Source: a virus
Length of the DNA: 20,148 nt
Reading direction: 5' to 3' (one strand)
IMG/VR virus record: IMGVR_UViG_3300044633_000100
Location: 1-20,148 of that record
Positions 2,804 through 19,879 of the stretch are shown one piece after another. The notes below the pieces were generated by a model, which ran no database searches, was not told where the DNA came from, and saw only the letters and a program-made list of their open reading frames with translations. The position numbers and the translations under genes are program-made. How positions within the stretch are numbered: position 1 is the first letter of the stretch; each line of letters begins with the position of its first letter.

Positions 2804-4035
2804 TAGAACGTACCCCCAGCAATACCTGTTGAGAACGTACCTGATCCAGTAACTGTCACGCCAGTTGCGGTTGCTTTAAACCTTTGCGTACCAAGCACTG
2901 AAACACCAAACTCACCTGCCGCGGGTCGATACACGCCAGTGTTTGTTTCCGCCGCAAAGTTTAGAGAAGGGGTTCCCACCGTGCCATCCAACAAACTCAC
3001 CGTAGAGGCGCCAGCTTGGGTGGTGTTGGCGTTAAGAAAGTTGGTTCCGTCGCAGATAAGGGTGGCTTGTTGCCCCGGTGGTATCGTTGCCGTAAACCCC
3101 AACCCTGTCGTCACCGTAAGGCTAAAACCGTTGTCCGTTGTTTGGTTCGAGATGACGTACAAGTTCACAATAGGTGGGAACGTCACCACCACGTTGCTTG
3201 TCAGATTACCAACGTACTCTTGGATGTTGTTTGCCGCCTCGTTGTTCGTCAGCAGAACAGCTCCACCAGTCACGCTCTTTGTAAGTGAAGTAAACGCAAA
3301 CTGTGAACTAACGCCATAACCAACGGTTACGTAGGCAGTTCCTGTACATACAATAAATGCTGACTCTGTTGGGTTAAACGTCTTAGTAGAGTTACCATCT
3401 ATCAGCTCAGCACCAGTACAAGAGATCGTGAAGGATCCAGTACCGTTGTTCTTAAACAAAGTAAACCAGTTATTGCCAAGGGTGGCCGCGGCTGGGAGCG
3501 TTGCCACACCAGATCCGCCAGACCACACACGAGTCTGCGCTCTGTCGGTTACCGCAAAGGTAGTTCCTGTAGTAATCGCAGAACTTGGGTGGCTTTGATT
3601 AAGGGTAGCACCGCTGGCAACCAAACCGTACCCAGCTAGGGTAGCGGCGTCAGCTCCAGATGAACCAGCACCAAAAGCAATGACACCCCAAGTACCCTGA
3701 GCGTTTGCGTTGGTAGTGATGTAGATGTACTTGGACTCGCCAGCGGCTACAGACACAATCGTGTTTACGCCTGCGTAGTCTTTGACCGTAAAAGTGTTCG
3801 CACCAATGTTGCGGATCAGCGCGTCGTTGCCAACCGAGGTTTGATTAGCGGGAGGCATAAACAGGCTCAAGCTACCAGCAGTAGCGGTCACCTGCATGAT
3901 GCGGGGGGCAAAGTCGGTGCTTGTCGTGCTGTTGCTAGGCCAGTTTAACTGCGTGTTAGCAGACAGCGTAACCGCACGAAAGCTTACGTCCGTTGGCTGG
4001 ATTACGTCACCAGTGAAGGGGCTTACATAGCTCAT
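2803..4035 (-). CDS. Phage tail fibre-like protein (410 aa)
   Basis: A beta-rich, Ser/Thr/Gly/Asn-rich virion protein, likely a trimeric fibre or spike. The N-terminus (MSYVSPFTGDVIQPTDVSFR) precedes two similar beta units. Each has a long stretch ending in a hydrophobic strand: MPPANQTSVGNDALIRNIG at about 80-100, and LPAAATLGNNWFTLFKNNG at about 180-198. The last 60 residues follow the common phage-fibre tail pattern TPSLNFAAETNTGVYRPAAG, then a TGVTVTGSGTF strand and the terminal GGTF. The start shares ATGA with the upstream stop. The last codons GGG GGT ACG TTC put a Shine-Dalgarno-like G run just before the TAATG that starts the nozzle gene. Location between adaptor-like and nozzle genes suggests attachment near the tail hub. 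Confidence 0.7.
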   Translation of the reverse strand: MSYVSPFTGDVIQPTDVSFRAVTLSANTQLNWPSNSTTSTDFAPRIMQVTATAGSLSLFMPPANQTSVGNDALIRNIGANTFTVKDYAGVNTIVSVAAGESKYIYITTNANAQGTWGVIAFGAGSSGADAATLAGYGLVASGATLNQSHPSSAITTGTTFAVTDRAQTRVWSGGSGVATLPAAATLGNNWFTLFKNNGTGSFTISCTGAELIDGNSTKTFNPTESAFIVCTGTAYVTVGYGVSSQFAFTSLTKSVTGGAVLLTNNEAANNIQEYVGNLTSNVVVTFPPIVNLYVISNQTTDNGFSLTVTTGLGFTATIPPGQQATLICDGTNFLNANTTQAGASTVSLLDGTVGTPSLNFAAETNTGVYRPAAGEFGVSVLGTQRFKATATGVTVTGSGTFSTGIAGGTF

Positions 4036-4667
4036 GAATCCACCGCTATAGCTTGACGATCAGCCACACGCAACTTGTCCTCAGCCGTCAAAGTATCCAT
4101 GATCAGTTTGTATTGAGCCTGCCACATAGGAATGCGGTCGTCATTCTTAAGGAACGGCATCGCCTGAAGCAAGGAGCCATAAAGCAACGCTTGAGGAGCG
4201 TAGATGGTGAACCAATTGGTTTGGTTAGAGCTGTCCAAAGGCTGAACACGCTCGTAGTACAGAACCTCAAAAGCGTAGGCTACGTCAGGCGTAGGAGCGA
4301 TGAGCCAATTGGAGTAGTCGTAGTCAGCGTAGTAGACAGGAGTGCCTGTCGCAGTCGGAGAAGGCCAATATTCCCTCAGATACTCATACTTGCGAAGCAA
4401 AACTGGCTGGCGCGCTCCACCAACTGTGATGTTCATAGACACCGTTTTGTGCCAACGAGCTGGCTTGGCTATGGTAGAAGTCCCAATCACCATGTTGCTG
4501 GTGTTGACCGTCAAGTTACCCAAAAACTTGATCTGAGAGGCTATAACCTGCTCAGCCAACATGATAAACAGAGGGATCTTGTCCAGCGTGGCGGTGTCAT
4601 TACGCTCCAAATAGGATTGGATGTTTTCGACCAAGCTGTCATAGGTCATAACACTTGCAGTCGCCAT
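4032..4667 (-). CDS. Head-tail adaptor-like protein (SU10/gp6 adaptor type, 211 aa)
   Basis: Adaptor proteins form the ring between portal and nozzle in short-tailed phages. The product starts with a helical segment (MTYDSLVENIQSYLERND, then PLFIMLAEQVIASQIK) and has a central aromatic beta region (PVYYADYDYSNWLIAPTPD). A helical C-terminal part follows (YAPQALLYGSLLQAMPFLKN, then WQAQYKLIMDTL). This helix-beta-helix plan fits the SU10-type adaptor family I recognise from phage genomes, but no search was run. The ATG at 4667 has a strong Shine-Dalgarno (AGAGGTGA) a few bases upstream. It is the first gene after the only clear promoter-like gap in the window, and its stop overlaps the next start (ATGA). 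Confidence 0.6.
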   Translation of the reverse strand: MATASVMTYDSLVENIQSYLERNDTATLDKIPLFIMLAEQVIASQIKFLGNLTVNTSNMVIGTSTIAKPARWHKTVSMNITVGGARQPVLLRKYEYLREYWPSPTATGTPVYYADYDYSNWLIAPTPDVAYAFEVLYYERVQPLDSSNQTNWFTIYAPQALLYGSLLQAMPFLKNDDRIPMWQAQYKLIMDTLTAEDKLRVADRQAIAVDS

Positions 4668-6788: not shown

Positions 6789-6912
6789 CTACCTTTGGAG
6801 GCTTGACTGCTTCTTGAATAGCTTGGATCAATTGGTACACCTCTTGGTAGGGGCGTGTTCCAAGGTAACCAAGAATTTGGTTTACTGTTTCGATGTCCAT
6901 GTTTAGCTTCAT
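6766..6912 (-). CDS. Small soluble protein of unknown function (48 aa)
   Basis: Read directly from the bases: ATG at 6912-6910, TAA at 6768-6766. The start shares ATGA with the stop of the preceding gene. A GGAG lies nine bases upstream inside that gene's last codons, so the start is well placed. The product reads MKLNMDIETVNQILGYLGTR and then a helical stretch (PYQEVYQLIQAIQEAVKPPK) with an acidic tail. The helix has a regular hydrophobic pattern, suggesting a small oligomerising protein. It overlaps the next gene by 23 bases in another frame. No family is recognised. Confidence 0.65.
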   Translation of the reverse strand: MKLNMDIETVNQILGYLGTRPYQEVYQLIQAIQEAVKPPKVDDGTTGD

Positions 6913-7136
6913 GCTGTTGGCTCCGATGGTGTTTCCGCAGGTGTTTCAACAACTGGAGGCTCAACGTACTGCGCTGGGACATACTCCCAATCCAGTGGAA
7001 GACCTACCCAGTTGACATGATTCCATACCCACTTGGCTGTGATGTTCTCATCAGGAGGTGCAACATCAGTTGAGTATGGAATCTGCTCTTCAGAAGTTCC
7101 GCAGTACAAGCCAGAGATTTCAAATTTGTAGTACAT
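6909..7136 (-). CDS. Small Trp-rich, Pro-tailed phage protein (75 aa)
   Basis: The N-terminal part is aromatic (MYYKFEISGLYCGTSEEQIP; WVWNHVNWVGLPLDWEYVP). The C-terminal 20 residues are a flexible Pro/Glu/Thr tail (VVETPAETPSEPTA). There is no membrane segment. It directly follows the Asp-box propeller gene (TAAATCATG junction) and precedes the lysis genes. It is similar in plan to the small proteins that follow each fibre gene further upstream (short body, Pro-rich linker), so a fibre-assembly helper role is a reasonable guess. I cannot show homology to them. Confidence 0.7.
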   Translation of the reverse strand: MYYKFEISGLYCGTSEEQIPYSTDVAPPDENITAKWVWNHVNWVGLPLDWEYVPAQYVEPPVVETPAETPSEPTA

Positions 7137-7139
7137 GAT

Positions 7140-8831
7140 TTATCCTACCCTTACATAAGCGTTTGAGCCAGTTCGTATTGGCGTAATGCCTGTTACTCCA
7201 GTTCTGTAAAACGCACCACCAGCAGTTATGTCTGCTTTTAGTACGTTAGTAGAATTGGCAGAAGTTAAACCAGCCGAACCATAAGCAAAAGCAACACCGC
7301 CAGCATCTGGTGTTGTGAAAACGTTTCCTACGTTCCAATTTCCACCAGTATTTGCATTTGTGTATTGGCTACCTGTCCAAGTTACACCCCCATCTAGAGA
7401 ATAAATAGCTTGGTTATATCCAGAATTACCATTGTAACCAAGCAGAATAACTGTGTTGGAATCACCTGCATATGTAATAATTCCGTAACCCCCCTGCGTA
7501 ACAACGATACTTAAATCAAATGCTTGTGGTAAGGTTACAAGTGTCCAAGTAACAGCATCTGAAGATGTTAATAGTTGCGACTGACCAACAACACCAGCAT
7601 AAAATCTATTTGCATCAGCAAAAACACACAGTTGAGTTGATAAGACACCAATTGGGAATGTTGGCGTTACCCAAGTAACGCCATCGTCTGTTGACACTTT
7701 GTAAAGAGCGCTACGATTAGAAAAAACAAGAGTAGAGCCTTTATAATATAAACCACCATTAGTACTACCTGAAGGTAGTGGTCTATTTGCTGACCACGTT
7801 GCGCCAGAATCAGCCGTGTAATATGCTTCAGACGAACTGATTCCATTTGTAATAATTAGTTTTGCGGGGTCTGTTGTGTTGTACTGCAAAATATAATTAT
7901 CGGGGTTTAAACCCCCAGAAGCGGCAAAAGTGCAGGCCGCCCACGTTACACCGCCATCAGTTGTAAAACGATACGCACCGCCCACATTTAAAAAACAACT
8001 GTTGCCATTGCGATAAAATTGTATCTCGTCAGCTTGAGTGGCCGCCCCTGCACTTCCAAGAATAGCAGTCGTGTTATCACCGCCAAAGGTAAAACCATCA
8101 GTTGAAAGAGAAGCCACAAAGTTTATTCCGTCTGGGGCAAGCAACAAAAATCTTGCACCGCACCAGAACACAGCAAATTGTGAAGTAGCGGTTGAGTTTC
8201 TTTTCCAACCAGTCGTTGCCGCAAACGTGTTGTTGCTACCTCCAGTGCTTTGTGAAGCGTGTGCAATTGTTGCGGAAGTAGTCGAAAAAGTAGGCAACCC
8301 AGTAACTGTTTCAGTTGTCCATGTTGTGCCATTGGTAGTAGACTTAACACTTAACGCAGTTGCAGATGAAAAGCAATAACTAAATATTTTTGTATTATTG
8401 CTTGCGACAACACCATTTGTTCCACCACTTGCAGTATTAGTTCTATTACTTGTTTGACCCGTACCTACTGCTTGCAAACCAGCGGATGTCATTACGCCGA
8501 CACCAACATCAGTTGTGCCGTTATAGTACGCGGGTACTACTGAAATACTACTTGCAGATATTCTTGCAATAGGATAAGTTGCGTGAAACCCAAAACCATT
8601 ATAAGAAAATGATAAAGCGCTTTGCGCTAAAACTGTTGGAGCGGTCGAAGTTCCAGCCGCCGCAAGATTTGTTTTTGTGGTTGTGCTTAAATTACTAGAC
8701 GCTGTTGATACGCCAGACTGTAACCACTTGCTACTTCCAGCATCGTAAAAGGCAGGAACGCCTGATAAATCAACAATCTCGCCAATTGAATATCGGCTTA
8801 AATCGTCAGGTGTATTATTGTTAAATGCCAT
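7140..8831 (-). CDS. Asp-box (BNR) beta-propeller protein of the fibre cluster (563 aa)
   Basis: Seven Asp-box-like motifs (S/T-x-D-x-G-x-T-W) recur through residues 164-485: STTNGTTW (164-171), STDGFTF (243-249), TTDGGVTW (290-297), TADSGATW (339-346), STDDGVTW (380-387), TSSDAVTW (422-429) and SLDGGVTW (478-485). Spacing is mostly 41-56 residues, as expected for successive propeller blades of sialidase-fold or photosynthesis-system-like proteins. The N-terminal 130 residues (MAFNNNTPDDLSRYSIGEIV...) look like a virion-attachment or trimeric part. I see no obvious sialidase catalytic set, so binding (receptor or glycan) is more likely than hydrolysis, but activity is not excluded. GGAG lies eight bases upstream of the ATG, inside the end of the preceding gene. 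Confidence 0.7.
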   Translation of the reverse strand: MAFNNNTPDDLSRYSIGEIVDLSGVPAFYDAGSSKWLQSGVSTASSNLSTTTKTNLAAAGTSTAPTVLAQSALSFSYNGFGFHATYPIARISASSISVVPAYYNGTTDVGVGVMTSAGLQAVGTGQTSNRTNTASGGTNGVVASNNTKIFSYCFSSATALSVKSTTNGTTWTTETVTGLPTFSTTSATIAHASQSTGGSNNTFAATTGWKRNSTATSQFAVFWCGARFLLLAPDGINFVASLSTDGFTFGGDNTTAILGSAGAATQADEIQFYRNGNSCFLNVGGAYRFTTDGGVTWAACTFAASGGLNPDNYILQYNTTDPAKLIITNGISSSEAYYTADSGATWSANRPLPSGSTNGGLYYKGSTLVFSNRSALYKVSTDDGVTWVTPTFPIGVLSTQLCVFADANRFYAGVVGQSQLLTSSDAVTWTLVTLPQAFDLSIVVTQGGYGIITYAGDSNTVILLGYNGNSGYNQAIYSLDGGVTWTGSQYTNANTGGNWNVGNVFTTPDAGGVAFAYGSAGLTSANSTNVLKADITAGGAFYRTGVTGITPIRTGSNAYVRVG

Positions 8832-8833
8832 GA

Positions 8834-9139
8834 TTAAACTCCGTAAACATTGACTGAAACATTGGCTGTGTTAGAGCGCACAACCACCAATTTTGCACTG
8901 CCCGATGTTAGACCAGACAGTTGCATAACCTCATTTGCTGGAAGCAGGGTATCGTAAACAAAGTACTCCGCATTTGTGGGCGTTGCCGAAGTTGACAAAG
9001 GTGCAATACGAATTGTTACGTTTGATGCGTTACGATTGCACACGTTGACCGTGAAGGACTGTGATCCCGCTGGCAGTGTGCAGATTGTTGTTAGTGTGTT
9101 AGCGGCAAGGTCTGCCGAACCTAAAAGTCCTGTTGTCAT
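8834..9139 (-). CDS. Small beta-rich fibre-region protein (101 aa)
   Basis: A compact beta-sandwich-like product with alternating hydrophobic strands (TTICTLPAGSQSFTVNVCNR; ASNVTIRIAPLSTS; VSVNVYGV). It ends in YGV, as the two large receptor-type fibres of this cluster end in LYGI/LYGV plus one or two residues. Two Cys (at 20 and 34) are present. A good Shine-Dalgarno (AAGGAG) precedes the ATG at 9139, in the nine-base gap after the stub fibre gene. It may be a separate head or cap domain used with the short fibre upstream, or a decoration-type virion protein. This is inference from position and composition. Confidence 0.7.
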   Translation of the reverse strand: MTTGLLGSADLAANTLTTICTLPAGSQSFTVNVCNRNASNVTIRIAPLSTSATPTNAEYFVYDTLLPANEVMQLSGLTSGSAKLVVVRSNTANVSVNVYGV

Positions 9140-9148
9140 GTTTGCTCC

Positions 9149-9406
9149 TTATAGGTTAGCGTAGTAGAAAAGATCAATGGCTGAAACACCTGAAGGCGTT
9201 GACCAAGTAGGGGGTGCGCCTGAACCACCAGAAGTCAAGATTTGACCTGCCGTGCCTGTTGAGTTACCAGAGCCAACACCCAAAGCCAATGACGTGTTAA
9301 GCGTAAAGCCTGTAGTGCCACCAGACAGAAGTGCTAGTACACCAGACCCGTCGCCTGAAACGACCGCTCCACCAGTGGATGTGTCCGCATTGATTGTGGT
9401 TGCCAT
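9149..9406 (-). CDS. Stub tail fibre: shaft start without a receptor domain (85 aa)
   Basis: The N-terminus (MATTINADTSTGGAVVSGDG, then SGVLALLSGGTTGFTLNTS) is the usual start of short phage fibres. It is followed by one copy of the shaft motif AGQILTSGGSGAPPTW, which the two larger fibres upstream carry in related form. The protein then ends after about 20 residues instead of continuing into a C-terminal domain. It may be a truncated third copy of the duplicated fibre or a natural short adaptor fibre. It starts six bases after the TTGGAG that ends the preceding chaperone-like gene. Confidence 0.75.
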   Translation of the reverse strand: MATTINADTSTGGAVVSGDGSGVLALLSGGTTGFTLNTSLALGVGSGNSTGTAGQILTSGGSGAPPTWSTPSGVSAIDLFYYANL

Positions 9407-9409
9407 GTG

Positions 9410-9592
9410 TTACTCCAATGCCTGTATTTTAGCCGTGAGTGCTGTAAGTTCAGCAAGCAATTGTTCTTTGGTTGGTGCAGGTGGGGCAACAGGCGGTACG
9501 TATGCCGCATCACGGGCTTCCAACTCAGCGATTTCTTGAGTCGTCAGATCAACCCGAATGCCGTTAACCATGTTGTGTGTGTATTGGCTCAT
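9410..9592 (-). CDS. Small fibre-assembly/chaperone-like protein, copy B (60 aa)
   Basis: From the ATG at 9592 it reads MSQYTHNMVNGIRVDLTTQE, then IAELEARDAAYV, a Pro/Ala linker, and a C-terminal coiled-coil-like helix (TKEQLLAELTALTAKIQALE). The ATG shares ATGA with the stop of fibre B. An upstream in-frame extension to 9646 would overlap that gene and is rejected. It is clearly homologous to the 57-aa product at 10456-10629: YTH-MVNG-RVDLT-QEIAE and PTKEQLLA...ALTA-IQALE are shared. The NG-R-DLT start resembles phage tail assembly chaperone proteins, but this is weak. Each copy follows a receptor-type fibre, suggesting a partner role. Confidence 0.8.
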   Translation of the reverse strand: MSQYTHNMVNGIRVDLTTQEIAELEARDAAYVPPVAPPAPTKEQLLAELTALTAKIQALE

Positions 9593-10452
9593 GTTGTAAC
9601 TCCATAAAGAGATGCTGTTCCAGACGCAATGTTGCCAGACGTCCATAGAATTTTGATAGCAGTTTTAGCTGTTGTGTTAGATGTATTTCCATTACCAAGA
9701 CCCAAAACAAACATGTTATTAACTTGATCTTGGTATGACGCCGCATAATCGGCAACTGTTATTAAAGAGTTTGTCATGTTATAAAACGATGCGCGACCGC
9801 TAACATATGATGTAGAACGAACACCTATAGTTGCGCTTGCGCCAACTGTAATAATGCCTGTAGTGTTATTGTTAATTGAGTTAGTTTGCGCACCATTACC
9901 AACAATTGCAAAATCATTGTTAATGTAAGAAGAAGTTACATACGTTGGCCCCGCCCCCGTGCCAACTTGAAAAAGTAAATAAGCATTTGTGGTTGATGGG
10001 GCAATTCCATCAAAAATAATAATGTAGTTGTTGTACCCACTTAGACCCGTCCAAGATAAAGATGCGGAACTAGAGGCTGTCACGGTGCTAATCAATGTCA
10101 TTGCCGCAGGACTAGCTGTTACCCAAGACGGAGCCGAAGCGCCATTGCTCTGCAAAAGTTGACCTGAACTACCTGCCGTTGTAACCGCTTGTGCAGTACC
10201 AGTGCCATACACAACACCGCCAGCGGTAGGCGTAGCAGTCGAGTTAGTACCACCATTAGCGATAGGCAATGTGCCTGTCACGCCAGTAGCAAGATTGACT
10301 GATGCTGGTGTAGCCCAAACAGGAGCAGAAGAACCTGCCGAAGTTAGCACCTGACCAGCAGAGCCTGACGCTGTGTTTGCGTACTGAGACCCATCACCGT
10401 AGGTTACGCTACCAGCGGTGGGTGTGTTGTTGCCGTTAATTATTACTGCCAT
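9589..10452 (-). CDS. Tail fibre / receptor-binding protein, copy B (287 aa)
   Basis: Residues 1-115 are a glycine- and serine-rich fibre shaft with two copies of the shaft motif (AGQVLTSAGSSAPVW at 32-46; SGQLLQSNGASAPSW at 96-110) and NGGTNSTATPTAGGV. A globular C-terminal domain starts at about 117 with AMTLISTVTASSSASLSWTG and ends SGNIASGTASLYGVTT. In other short-tailed phages this region binds the cell surface, so I infer a receptor role. Against copy A the entry and exit of the C-terminal domain are alike but the middle is not. The ATG at 10452 is preceded by GGAG at the end of the small copy A gene. The last codons (TAT GGA GTT) provide GGAG for the next start. Confidence 0.75.
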   Translation of the reverse strand: MAVIINGNNTPTAGSVTYGDGSQYANTASGSAGQVLTSAGSSAPVWATPASVNLATGVTGTLPIANGGTNSTATPTAGGVVYGTGTAQAVTTAGSSGQLLQSNGASAPSWVTASPAAMTLISTVTASSSASLSWTGLSGYNNYIIIFDGIAPSTTNAYLLFQVGTGAGPTYVTSSYINNDFAIVGNGAQTNSINNNTTGIITVGASATIGVRSTSYVSGRASFYNMTNSLITVADYAASYQDQVNNMFVLGLGNGNTSNTTAKTAIKILWTSGNIASGTASLYGVTT

Positions 10453-10455
10453 GGT

Positions 10456-10629
10456 TTACTCCAGTGCCTGTATCTGTGCTGTCAAAGCCTGCACCTGTGC
10501 AAGCAGTTGTTCTTTAGTTGGTGTGGGTGGCGTAGGCAGGACATACGAAGAGGCTTGCGCTTCAAACTCAGCAATCTCTTGAGCAGTTAGATCAACCCGA
10601 ACGCCATTAACCATTTTATGTGTGTACAT
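10456..10629 (-). CDS. Small fibre-assembly/chaperone-like protein, copy A (57 aa)
   Basis: Read directly from the bases: ATG at 10629-10627, TAA at 10458-10456. It begins MYTHKMVNGVRVDLTAQEIA, then EFEAQASSYV, a Pro/Thr linker and the helix TKEQLLAQVQALTAQIQALE. About three quarters of positions match the 60-aa copy B, and the flanking fibre genes are homologous too. It exactly fills the gap between the two fibre genes, with TAATCATG at its start. The Shine-Dalgarno is weak (GGGATT), so coupling to fibre A is likely. Role as a dedicated fibre chaperone or cap is inferred. Confidence 0.8.
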   Translation of the reverse strand: MYTHKMVNGVRVDLTAQEIAEFEAQASSYVLPTPPTPTKEQLLAQVQALTAQIQALE

Positions 10630-10631
10630 GA

Positions 10632-11513
10632 TTAACTAATCCCGTAAAGTTTGAATGTTCCTGAAGCAATGTTGCCAGAACCAAAAAAGAAACGAATTGC
10701 ATTGACTACGCCGGATGTTGCAAACCGATACCCACCACCAACAAAAGCGCCCTGTTGAGCAGAGTAACCATTTTCAAACCCTATAAGGTACCATTGAGTT
10801 CTGTTTGAAGCAGAAGGGTTTGCTATAGTCATAGTAAAAGACTGGCCACCATAACTAGCAGTATTATCTTGCCCATAAAAATTGATGTAAAAACGATCAT
10901 CAGAAGTTTGCCCATAGTTCCAAGTTGTATCACCAAAATTAGTATGCGTGCTGTAATAGTTATTAGCCCCTGAATCATAACTAGAACCATTATTGGTTGA
11001 AGTTCTAAACACTAAAGCGGCGTTGTTTGTTGCAGGAACAGCATTAGTGACAATCACCACATAGTTTTTGTACGCAGAAGTCAAACCAGTAAAATCTACT
11101 GTTGCGCTTGAACTTGCTATAGTGGTTGAAATAAGCGTCATTGCGCCAGCACTAGGCGTAATCCAACTAGGCGCACCTGCACCGTTTGTTTGAAGCACTT
11201 GACCTGCCGTACCGACTGCCAGCATCTGTGTTGTGCCTGCGGCTGATTGATAAGGAATCGTGCCATTAGAACCGCCAGCAAGGTTTGTAGCTGTTGTGGC
11301 TGATGTAGCAGTACCAACAGTAACACCGCTCAAACTTGTAGCACCCGTACCACCAGAGCCAACGGGCAAAGGTTGAGCCAAAGTTACAACTTGGTTAGTG
11401 GCAATAGTGACAGCGGTGGTTGATCCGTTTGTTTGTAAAACTAACTGACCAGTTGTGTCGCCTGTCTGAACTAGCGCCGTTCCGCTTGCTGTTCCTGCTG
11501 AAATTGTACTCAT
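10632..11513 (-). CDS. Tail fibre / receptor-binding protein, copy A (293 aa)
   Basis: Residues 1-120 form the shaft: MSTISAGTASGTALVQTGDT, LQTNGSTTAVTI, GSGGTGATSLSG and AGQVLQTNGAGAPSW (103-117). The globular C-terminal domain starts at about 124 with AMTLISTTIASSSATVDFTG. It continues with YKNYVVIVTNAVPATN and a Tyr/Asn-rich part (SGANNYYSTHTNFGDTTWNY), and ends SGNIASGTFKLYGIS. This arrangement is common in fibre proteins of aquatic podoviruses, and the C-terminal region is the likely receptor-contact domain. The Shine-Dalgarno AAGGA lies upstream of the ATG at 11513, overlapping the preceding stop. Confidence 0.75.
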   Translation of the reverse strand: MSTISAGTASGTALVQTGDTTGQLVLQTNGSTTAVTIATNQVVTLAQPLPVGSGGTGATSLSGVTVGTATSATTATNLAGGSNGTIPYQSAAGTTQMLAVGTAGQVLQTNGAGAPSWITPSAGAMTLISTTIASSSATVDFTGLTSAYKNYVVIVTNAVPATNNAALVFRTSTNNGSSYDSGANNYYSTHTNFGDTTWNYGQTSDDRFYINFYGQDNTASYGGQSFTMTIANPSASNRTQWYLIGFENGYSAQQGAFVGGGYRFATSGVVNAIRFFFGSGNIASGTFKLYGIS

Positions 11514-14075: not shown

Positions 14076-14423
14076 TTATGGGCTCAGTTGGTCTAGGTTA
14101 CCGTTATTCTCAGGATCCTGAGTGTTACCCTCTGTCGAGATGATAAAGCTACCACCAGTGATACCGTTTTGGGTAGTGACAATGTTGTTGTCATTGGCGG
14201 CAACGCTCACATCAGGGCGTGGGAATCTGATCGTTATTCTCTCAGTTTTTCGGGCTGGAAGTCTATAGGGATCTTTCTCATCAGCGCATCCTTGCCCACA
14301 GACTTGTAAGCCGGGGAAATTGGGGTCAGGTCTCATCTGATCATGGTCGCGTTTCATCTTGCAACGATCACAGATCGCTATCGATAAAGTAGCGTTGCCA
14401 CGAGTGTCGAGGAAGACTGGCAT
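14076..14423 (-). CDS. Small zinc-ribbon-like phage protein (115 aa)
   Basis: Four cysteines in CDRC (18-21) and CGQGC (42-46, CX3C) are spaced as in a metal-binding ribbon. The intervening KMKRDHDQMRPDPNFPG is basic. The N-terminal segment is a beta hairpin, and the C-terminal 40 residues are flexible and Asn/Gly-rich (ANDNNIVTTQNGITGGSF). It lies between the homing endonuclease and the large fibre, sharing TAATG with the former. This kind of small Cys-ribbon protein is common in phage structural modules, but its role is not known to me. Zinc binding is inferred from spacing. Confidence 0.75.
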   Translation of the reverse strand: MPVFLDTRGNATLSIAICDRCKMKRDHDQMRPDPNFPGLQVCGQGCADEKDPYRLPARKTERITIRFPRPDVSVAANDNNIVTTQNGITGGSFIISTEGNTQDPENNGNLDQLSP

Positions 14424-14938
14424 TAGTGAGTTCTCCCTTGCGCGGCAAGAGTAGCACTGCGAGAGGCAACACGTTTGGCAATCTGCTCTGGCGTTTGCTT
14501 GCGACCTTTGCCAGCTTTGCCGCCCTTGCTAAAGAAGTTTTCAGGCATAGGCTTTAGTTTGCCAACCAGCCATGGTGTTGGGCGTGGTATGCCCTTCAGT
14601 GGGCTGACATAGTCTTCGCCACGAGGCTTGCTCATTGGGGGCTTAAAACCACCAACAGCAATGTTCCAGCCAATCAATTGTTCAGGGCGAAGCTTGCTTT
14701 CAATGTCGTAGCAGTATTCAAGGTCTGAAACCAACACAACCTCTTTAATTAGAGTGTCCCAGCCGTATTTGTTGATTGCGTTTGACAAGATTGCATTGTC
14801 ATGTCGCTTGTTCTTATGAGCCCACTTGTGACCGTAATTCCAACGCTTATCTGCGTCTTTGGACACGCCAACATAACCCTCAGTTAACATATCACTGTGG
14901 TGTGGTGCGCGGATCCAATAGACGGAGCAAACGGTCAT
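14423..14938 (-). CDS. Free-standing GIY-YIG homing endonuclease (171 aa)
   Basis: The nuclease domain is N-terminal. VYW at 6-8 stands for the GIY element and YVG at 22-24 for YIG. Arg32 (KRW) is the expected catalytic Arg and Glu80 (DIESKL) the expected metal-binding Glu. IGWNIAVGG at 89-97 is the conserved end of the domain. A basic linker (KPPMSKPRG; GGKAGKGRK) leads to a NUMOD-like helical motif (TPEQIAKRVASRSATL), typical of DNA-recognition tails in homing enzymes. It sits within the structural operon between adaptor and zinc-ribbon genes and overlaps both (ATGA and TAATG). It has therefore been fully absorbed into the coupling pattern. Confidence 0.8.
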   Translation of the reverse strand: MTVCSVYWIRAPHHSDMLTEGYVGVSKDADKRWNYGHKWAHKNKRHDNAILSNAINKYGWDTLIKEVVLVSDLEYCYDIESKLRPEQLIGWNIAVGGFKPPMSKPRGEDYVSPLKGIPRPTPWLVGKLKPMPENFFSKGGKAGKGRKQTPEQIAKRVASRSATLAAQGRTH

Positions 14939-18961: not shown

Positions 18962-19879
18962 TTAGACGCCAGCAGTGCCGTACATCGCACGAGGATCAGT
19001 GAAGCCCACGTCGTAACGCTCTGTCGCTTTGTAGCGCATAGAGTCAGTTTCGAAGTCGCCTTCCATGGTCTTCTCGAGCTTACGACGCATCATGAGCTTC
19101 ATGCCTTCTGGAGCGTCGGTTTGTACGAAGAATGCTGAAGCATTGGTCAAACGTGACAACACAGCCGCGCCTTCGTCCAACAGACCGATGGACTTGACAG
19201 GGTTGATGTCGTTGTTTGCATTACCTGCGCGCAACACGGATTTCAAGAGGACTTCAGCTTGGAAGACGTTGCCGGGGGCGACCACCAATTGGCGGGGCAC
19301 AAGGCGAATCTTCTTACCATTGTTGTCCACAGCTTGACGAATCTGAATCAACATCTGCTCAAGCGATGTCTGTGACAGATTGGCGGCTGTAGCCAATTGG
19401 TTGCTGAATGTACCGCTGACGATAGGGTGCGATGTGCTGATCAAAGCAACGCCGTCGCCACCTGCTGTAGCACCGCCAGTGAAGGCGTTGTTCAACACGT
19501 TAGCAGACAAAGTCTCTTTGGTCTCAATCAATGACTGAGCCAAGTGACGTGCGTACACCTGACCGATACGGATGTGGTCACCGTCTTCAACCAAAACTTT
19601 GGTCAAAGCAAATGCCAAGCCGTACACAGAGTACACATAGCGTTTCAAGAACAGAACACCACCCTGTTGGTACGACACTGGTGTGCCGTCAGGCAACTGA
19701 GGTGCCGCGCCGAAACCGTACAAGACGGGTTCTTCGTGGTAGTTACGTGGAATGCCGTCTTGTTCCGTGAAAACACGAGACCATTCATCGGCACGTTGGT
19801 CGTAGACACCGTCGAAACATTCATTCAAGATAGGTTCGACGATGCTACGAAAGTCGGTACTGCGCATTGGAGCGGCCAT
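18962..19879 (-). CDS. Major capsid protein, Mu gpT-like HK97 fold (305 aa)
   Basis: This is the main shell protein. The N-terminal arm (MAAPMRSTDFRSIVEPILNE) leads to ALTKVLVEDGDHIRIGQVYA and then RHLAQSLIETKETLSANVLN, the long spine-helix-like stretch. ALISTSHPIVSG at 145-156 is the L-S--HP motif characteristic of Mu-like gpT capsid proteins. RLVPRQLVVAPGNVFQAEVL is the usual P-domain strand and turn. LMMRRKLEKTMEGDFETDSM and the C-terminal DVGFTDPRAMYG complete the fold. The length of about 305 aa is normal for this group. The gene has the strongest Shine-Dalgarno in the window (AGGAGG) and is followed by a GC-rich hairpin, both consistent with high expression. Confidence 0.85.
   Translation of the reverse strand: MAAPMRSTDFRSIVEPILNECFDGVYDQRADEWSRVFTEQDGIPRNYHEEPVLYGFGAAPQLPDGTPVSYQQGGVLFLKRYVYSVYGLAFALTKVLVEDGDHIRIGQVYARHLAQSLIETKETLSANVLNNAFTGGATAGGDGVALISTSHPIVSGTFSNQLATAANLSQTSLEQMLIQIRQAVDNNGKKIRLVPRQLVVAPGNVFQAEVLLKSVLRAGNANNDINPVKSIGLLDEGAAVLSRLTNASAFFVQTDAPEGMKLMMRRKLEKTMEGDFETDSMRYKATERYDVGFTDPRAMYGTAGV

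Follow-up and report, generated by a model that had tools for sequence, protein, structure and literature searches.

In a viral stretch of 20,148 bases (the entire IMG/VR record IMGVR_UViG_3300044633_000100, here called the window and probably a fragment; the same genes are present on a 34,311-base contig), we examined two adjacent modules that each pair a fibre gene, F1 or F2, with a very small gene behind it, S1 or S2. We consider it likely that each module encodes a short fibre and its own small chaperone, and that the receptor domain of the fibre forms one exchangeable cassette with the N-terminal half, or head, of that chaperone. Across related arrays, fibre tips and S heads are inherited together while the C-terminal half of S, its tail, is exchanged; the joint between the two halves is visible in one sibling pair and in an identity profile; the end of S carries a ribosome-binding motif; and no recognised S follows fibres that end in a built-in S74 chaperone.

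The four genes lie on the minus strand (Table 1), and the two modules are homologous. Aligned at both levels, S1 and S2 share 68% protein identity (E 8e-21) and 73% DNA identity over 174 columns, and F1 and F2 share 33% protein identity (E 5e-20, 248 columns), while their DNA matches nowhere exceed 30 bases. Within the C-terminal domains (C-domains) of the fibres, the entry (APSW.TPS..AMTLIST..SSSA) and the exit (SGNIASGT..LYG) are conserved around a divergent middle, and both domains match the profile phrog_14820, a group of phage proteins of unknown function (F1, E 3e-18; F2, E 8e-8). These alignments bear out the original prediction, made from the sequence by eye, of two fibre-plus-partner modules in which the small proteins and the domain borders are conserved and the domain centre is not. 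It had also warned that one small gene is easily missed, as S1 indeed is with only 57 codons. That S is a translated protein gene is indicated by the differences among ten related S genes, which fall at 0.26, 0.11 and 0.48 of codon positions 1, 2 and 3, respectively. The two putative receptor specificities that it ascribed to F1 and F2 are plausible.

For comparison, we ran four IMG/VR scans with S2, F1, F2 and F3 (the gene directly after S2) as queries, which gave 284 sources: the window and loci L001-L283, several of them overlapping on one contig (L054 and L055 count separately although they come from opposite ends of a single contig). From these we collected 141 modules, defined as a fibre followed by a small gene with one of four C-terminal tail types, and retained 134 after dropping 7 near-duplicates and 133 after dropping one module of L003, which had a wrong upstream open reading frame (ORF); the tail patterns overlook some small genes. 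Tail types A, B, C and D occurred in 77, 33, 22 and 2 of the 134 modules.

Judged by these sequence relations, S is made of two parts with different histories, a feature that the original prediction had missed. In tail A, which both window proteins carry (consensus in the window PTKEQLLAELxALTAKIQALE), codons -16, -12, -9, -5 and -2 before the stop encode leucine or isoleucine in most genes, a two-heptad pattern. Tail B corresponds to PF16778 (Phage_tail_APC): among ten small proteins scanned, four matched with E <=4e-12 and a fifth with 3e-6. Tails C and D match only PHROGs without a function, some of them shared by C and D, and one PHROG is shared, more weakly, by B and D; because of these shared matches the four tails are different, though not all shown to be unrelated. 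RxHxT-like heads were found in combination with each of the tails (10 modules with A, 6 with B, 9 with C and 2 with D).

The head, by contrast with the tail, follows the fibre tip. Over all pairs among the 133 modules, the similarity of two fibres in their last 60 residues (the C-end) and that of their S heads were correlated (r 0.67), a value that no permutation out of 2000 attained (highest 0.08; 0.13 when permuted within tail type and 0.09 within slot class). The corresponding value was only 0.15 for the fibre N-terminus and the head, 0.14 for tail type with either the C-end or the head, 0.11 for the N-terminus and the C-end, and 0.20 for the N-terminus and tail type. Among modules with a named slot, at a threshold of 0.4, like heads were present in 44 of the 57 pairs that had similar C-ends but sat in different slots, versus 90 of the 601 pairs that shared a slot but differed in their C-ends. 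The relation persisted within single tip classes: C-end and head correlated at r 0.49 within the 54 LYG-ended fibres (N-terminus, 0.11) and at r 0.51 within the 34 glycine-rich fibres (N-terminus, 0.20). Hence S travels with the C-domain of its fibre, which agrees with the earlier proposal that each fibre has a matched partner.

The sibling phage L013, whose DNA is 76% identical to the window over 7002-9406, indicates where such cassettes begin and end. Its homology runs from 11744 to 11143, entering F1 to about residue 124 (72.7% DNA identity), and then breaks across the F1 C-domain and the S1 head, save for 59 bases at the SGNIASG motif. It returns at 10523, where the S1 tail starts, and continues to 10307 within F2 (80.6%), beyond which it breaks again until F3. 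The slot-1 S of L013 has a different head from S1. Slot 2 of L013 (6169-8260) encodes a slot-type fibre of 145 amino acids (aa), followed up by a glycine-rich protein of 421 aa that is separate from it, and also contains a chaperone-like gene of 131 aa.

The same joint appears in an identity profile of the 51 tail-A genes whose next start lies exactly 3 nucleotides (nt) past the stop, aligned without gaps from the stop. In 884 pairs with different heads, identity was about 0.2-0.35 up to codon -26, 0.85-1.0 at codons -21 to -17, and 0.40-0.92 over the remaining tail-A codons. At the KEQ codons even the third positions were identical in 1.00, 0.89 and 0.89 of these pairs, and the codon preceding KEQ was ACC in 41 of 70 genes, versus 13% of the threonine codons in the fibres. 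This silent conservation fits a shared recombination joint, and a nucleotide signal could also account for it.

At its other end, the tail is tied to the gene that follows. The last codon of S1, GAG, together with the stop TAA yields the GGAG (10459-10462) that forms the Shine-Dalgarno sequence of F2, and the GGAG at 9413-9416, at the end of S2, likely serves F3 in the same way. Tail-A genes with the next fibre starting at +3 nt end in LE (36), LG (13) or ME (2), and GG[AG]G occurs in the last 12 bases of 49 of these 51 genes versus 3 of 19 others (Fisher 5e-11). With a slightly wider motif, the counts were 10/13 versus 2/14 for tail B and 7/7 versus 2/13 for tail C, and 2/2 for tail D, where there was no other case. 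Since the motif tracks the +3 starts, the translation start of the next gene seems to dictate which residue S ends with. Further upstream, the end of F2 (TATGGAGTTACAACATGA, 9589-9606, minus strand) seems from its letters to provide the Shine-Dalgarno sequence of S2; the LYG residues, conserved as they are, may therefore double in part as a signal for translation. We also considered whether S is a read-through extension of the fibre and ruled this out, as the gaps between the two genes are -4, -1, 1, 2, 8, 10 and 11 nt besides an in-frame 9.

Some fibres, slot-type ones included, end in a Peptidase_S74 domain (PF13884), as found by Pfam in L207, L196 and L004 and, for a fibre of L155, as S74-like by our own trained profile only. 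By that profile, none of 16 S74-ended ORFs in the comparison set was followed by a recognised S, versus 56 of 72 LYG-ended ORFs (p 4e-9); ORFs with the next gene out of view and ORFs with identical ends were left out of these counts. The contrast held without the loci fetched with S2 (0/16 versus 35/48), and also when every locus on the contigs of those loci was removed (0/15 versus 23/36, p 2e-5). F1 and F2 had no Pfam match, hence no S74 domain. The absence of a recognised S behind fibres that carry their own chaperone points to a folding role of S.

Named pelagiphages carry the same pairing. In Pelagibacter phage HTVC010P, the LYG-ended gp31 and gp32 are followed by gp33, which has an RxHxT head and an APC-like tail; gp48 of HTVC019P belongs to the same head class. 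We collected 21 named-phage regions, six chosen by a head match and fifteen by a tail match only. The profiles trained on IMG/VR recognised 20 named-phage modules, four with both the head and the LYG C-domain and sixteen with neither; Lederberg and HTVC026P were missed by the tail pattern and by hand both have the head and the LYG C-domain, and at least one more chaperone, that of ICBM1, escaped the tail pattern and was not counted. Over these 22 modules, all 6 with the LYG C-domain class thus had the head and none of the 16 with another class did, although the 6/6 tests only upstream content in one host group, because all six are pelagiphages picked by their head. Searched against named phages with tblastn, F1 and S2 gave no match and F2 one short match (MW202475), while a scan of genome contigs with F2 found 59 loci, mostly in metagenome-assembled genomes; in nearly all of them the match did not extend beyond the first 180 residues.

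Other head types were seen alongside. One recurring head (like LNEKIKAYLAQSNIAF..GDYQTGQPEG) stands behind LYG-class fibres in L081, L090, L092, L155, L220 and L221; these fibres mostly have SLYGISS ends, and the head is joined to several different tails. By eye, further tip/head classes seem to recur in named phages (HTVC203P, Mosig, HMO-2011 and Melnitz-2; HTVC115P and S-RIP2), with MEIAG-like ends and heads like NPNAEVSILGDD, and with VIVEEYK and MKALIxNxKVVDLVE.

Modeling with AlphaFold2 gave an all-beta F1 C-domain (predicted local distance difference test score, pLDDT, 81.8; predicted template modelling score, pTM, 0.82), whose fold recurs in many viral proteins, some of them named tail fibre (100 matches, E <=0.001). 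With a concanavalin-like lectin beta-sandwich as the candidate fold, the matches among solved structures were middling: the best was the C-terminal part of a GH32 enzyme (Z 8.3, root-mean-square deviation 3.5, 116 residues aligned), and galectins, lectin-like sandwiches, followed at Z of about 7. The TNF-like fold reported for Pam3 gp24 was absent among the PDB matches listed for this domain, which excludes nothing, and a PDB search with the F1 sequence returned nothing useful. When the fibre domain of L007 was modeled as read through into its S (pLDDT 83.5, pTM 0.70), the S part formed a beta-hairpin and a helix, with a linker between these and the tail helix.

Many fibre N-termini fall into slot types: MSTISAGTxSGTALV in slot 1 (as in F1), MAVxITGNNTPTAGG in slot 2 (F2) and MATxINADTxxGGA in slot 3. 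The slot-3 N-terminus is that of F3, which the original prediction had overlooked, as it had the difference in slot type between F1 and F2. The next fibre was of the slot-2 type after 17 of 20 slot-1 modules and of the slot-3 type after all 22 slot-2 modules, so that, going by this order, the N-terminal types mark array positions across many phages; the N-termini of 59 of the 133 modules fit none of the named classes. Among the relatives there are arrays with one, two and three modules: the de-duplicated set contained 80 single runs of adjacent modules, 25 double (the window included) and 1 triple (L005), with single runs over-counted because contigs are often cut and duplicates were removed.

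This order bears on the origin of the two modules, which the original prediction had attributed to duplication followed by divergence. Their homology stands, whereas a recent tandem duplication of the fibre and small-gene module in the lineage of this phage, with the tips diverging afterwards, is disfavoured by the C-domain tree, the approximately unbiased (AU) test and the S-head distances, and we regard it as very improbable. The identities of S1 with S2 and of F1 with F2 would suit it, as would the shared head class of the two window modules, since only 6 of 33 module pairs within a contig have similar heads and array neighbours mostly carry different cassettes; the window is one of the fewer arrays that hold two cassettes of the same class. 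Set against this, F1 and F2 have different slot N-termini whose order is nearly fixed across phages. A quick tree was built from 54 LYG-type C-domains and left 32 of its 51 inner branches open; in it, F2 joined the slot-2 fibres of L003 and L004 with a support of 99, while the row nearest to F1 was a slot-2 fibre of L016, another phage. Forcing F1 and F2 into a single clade cost 70 log-likelihood units and was rejected (AU p 0.008). The heads agree: the S2 head is nearest to those of L004 and L003, and the S1 head is nearest to those of L007 and L016 (similarity 0.72 and 0.68), with S2 (0.67) no closer. By their sequences, the two C-domains come from different lineages.

Heads and C-domains might merely hitch-hike as neighbours, without any functional match. 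In favour of this, they are adjacent, and shared sequence sets the exchange boundaries. Yet the S tail is equally close to the head, and tail type correlates weakly with both the head and the C-end; moreover, the head class stays with its C-domain class in pelagiphages too, and the two co-diverge even within a class. We therefore judge hitch-hiking unlikely. It is also quite unlikely, in our view, that S is no chaperone but a structural tip or cap that stays on the fibre, either as an accessory adhesin or as a transient cap, with its tail helix holding it on the trimer. A tip-matched head fits such a cap equally well, TfaMu is reported to stay on its fibre, and the chaperones of Alteromonas phages have been proposed, in the account given there, to act as transient caps (PMC10579305). 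The lack of a recognised S behind S74 fibres, however, argues for folding, and the report on Pam3 describes its chaperone gp25 as undetected in virions by mass spectrometry (PMC9608196). The two roles are not mutually exclusive.

Several observations weigh against a matched chaperone head that is exchanged together with the tip. The weaker correlations also exceed all permutations, which implies some lineage effect, and the nearest C-domain neighbour's head ranked in the top tenth for only 23 of 54 LYG and 16 of 34 glycine-rich modules. Modules that correlate cannot be taken as independent events, and the loci entered the set through similarity to S2, F1, F2 and F3. For slot-type fibres alone the S74 contrast was 0/5 (one a doubtful match, L195) versus 70/152 (p 0.066), which is suggestive only. 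By the patterns used, 16 of the 72 LYG-ended genes had no S of their own; at least 10 of these fibres adjoin another S-like small gene by eye, and four of those small genes carry the window's head or the RxHxT head. HTVC010P gp31 likewise has no small gene of its own, its next gene being LYG-ended too. S1, S2 and two tail-A relatives had no Pfam match above the cut-off, and so match no known chaperone family, and the PDB search found no credible relative of S2. The L007 model, which came without an interface error, gives no structural support for the putative contact between head and tip. Finally, S is much shorter than Pam3 gp25 (162 residues), and two heptads make a very short trimerisation element.

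Despite its size, S resembles known fibre chaperones in its organization. The report on Pam3 describes gp25 as a protein of two domains, a variable N-terminal one that attaches to the fibre tip and a conserved helical C-terminal one that trimerises, giving a 3:3 complex (PMC9608196). As in the F/S modules, gp25 is tied to the preceding fibre gene, gp24, with which it was cloned and after which it is named, and the two-part logic is the same; by that description, however, the gp25 head is a beta-sandwich and its C-terminal domain has four alpha-helices (PMC9608196), whereas S, with 57-60 residues, has a predicted head of a beta-hairpin and a helix and one short helix behind it. Pam3 has one fibre gene, while these phages have slot arrays. 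TfaMu and other Tfa proteins are described as similarly modular, with a fibre-binding and a conserved part and a gene downstream of the fibre (PMC9608196, PMC10579305). Like them, S1 and S2 lie directly downstream of their own fibre genes and combine a variable, fibre-specific N-terminal part with a conserved C-terminal part that is helical by prediction in the L007 model; unlike Tfa, they match no Pfam family. Nor did they match PF16778, which is the tail of relatives with the same heads, S1 and S2 carrying another, unnamed tail. Peptidase_S74, a chaperone of the endosialidase type, would do the same job from within the fibre polypeptide. In the DUF4376 systems of Alteromonas phages A5 (gp8/gp9) and V22 (gp26/gp27), a fibre and its cognate chaperone are shared together by distantly related phages, but, as far as described, as whole genes, and the chaperones are larger (195 and 239 residues; PMC10579305, PMC7289586). 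The analogy suggests that S works like the Tfa and gp25 chaperones, with the same division of labour in about one third of the length. As it has no sequence kinship to the named families, we do not file it under either. A non-exhaustive literature search found no description of cassettes made of a fibre tip and a chaperone head with the joint inside the chaperone gene.

We suggest that each module encodes a short tail fibre, which by analogy would be a trimer, and behind it a small intermolecular chaperone that helps this fibre to fold. The slot-specific N-terminus would fix the position of the fibre in the virion, as an attachment address, and the exchangeable C-domain is predicted to bind the receptor. 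The S head, co-inherited with this domain, would recognise it, and the helical tail, largely independent of fibre type, probably oligomerises the chaperone, perhaps as a trimer, in line with its heptads and predicted helix. A tip would then change by recombination of the DNA that begins where the fibre N-terminus ends and reaches as far as the joint between S head and S tail. Because this stretch ends inside the chaperone gene, an incoming receptor domain would bring the matching chaperone half along, joined in frame to the resident tail. As the last codon and stop of the chaperone gene (GGAGTAA or GGGGTAA) provide a ribosome-binding site for the fibre that comes next, neighbouring cassettes would in addition be linked in translation.

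Table 1. Genes and parts of the fibre array in the window.
Feature	Position	Strand	Size or sequence	Remarks
F1	10632-11513	-	293 aa	
F1 N-terminal part	11143-11513	-	MSTISAG..SGTALVQTGDTTG	Slot-1 type, recurring at this array position; flank of cassette 1 that stays constant
F1 C-terminal domain	10632-11159	-	about 175 aa; end SGNIASGTFKLYGIS	All-beta; predicted receptor-binding tip; exchanged part of cassette 1
S1	10456-10629	-	57 aa	Start +2 nt from F1 stop
S1 head	10522-10629	-	MYTHKMVNGVRVDLTAQEIAEFEAQASSYVLPTPPT	Fibre-matched half; similarity tracks fibre C-domain; no L013 homology
S1 tail A	10456-10521	-	PTKEQLLAQVQALTAQIQALE + stop	Leucine-heptad helix, constant half
F2	9589-10452	-	287 aa	
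F2 N-terminal part	10307-10452	-	MAVIINGNNTPTAGSVTYGDGS	Slot-2 type; slot recurrence; L013 DNA match
F2 C-terminal domain	9589-10113	-	end SGNIASGTASLYGVTT	Same class as that of F1; exchanged part of cassette 2
S2	9410-9592	-	60 aa	Start -4 nt, ATG overlapping F2 stop as ATGA
S2 head	9476-9592	-	MSQYTHNMVNGIRVDLTTQEIAELEARDAAYVPPVAPPA	Nearest heads in L003 and L004, whose fibres are also nearest F2
S2 tail A	9410-9475	-	PTKEQLLAELTALTAKIQALE + stop	91% DNA identity over 82 bases (9401-9482) to the L013 S tail
F3	9149-9406	-	85 aa; MATTINADTSTGGAVVSGDGSG	Slot-3 type N-terminus, without C-domain; array end in this phage

The S2 frame also allows a longer reading of 78 aa. The virion genes of the window lie on the minus strand, and Pfam identified a capsid protein (18962-19879) and an SU10-type adaptor (4032-4667). 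A 75-aa gene (6909-7136, minus strand), whose product had no Pfam match, directly follows that of a 563-aa BNR/sortilin-like protein (7140-8831) as a further possible pair of fibre and partner. At 14423-14938 (minus strand) lies a 171-aa protein that by eye resembles a GIY-YIG homing endonuclease, for which Pfam gave no match. An HNH endonuclease domain with a weak AP2 match is found in L155 (7956-8480), directly after a slot-3 fibre whose end is S74-like by our own profile. The exchange of cassettes could be aided by homing enzymes encoded close to the arrays.

Matching fibre and chaperone is a main obstacle to swapping phage tips, and the arrays described here suggest how phages change their host-binding tips yet keep a matching folding aid. 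The chances seem to us about even that they amount to a standard interchange format for tips, in which N-terminal addresses and chaperone tails serve as constant adaptors, the crossover lies inside the chaperone gene, and some 60 residues are enough for a split-function fibre chaperone. If tip and chaperone head are exchanged at a fixed joint, their match becomes directly testable with very small proteins. A rule by which head class predicts tip class would help in naming unannotated small phage genes and, if true, the natural boundaries of host-range cassettes in uncultured phages would be readable from sequence.

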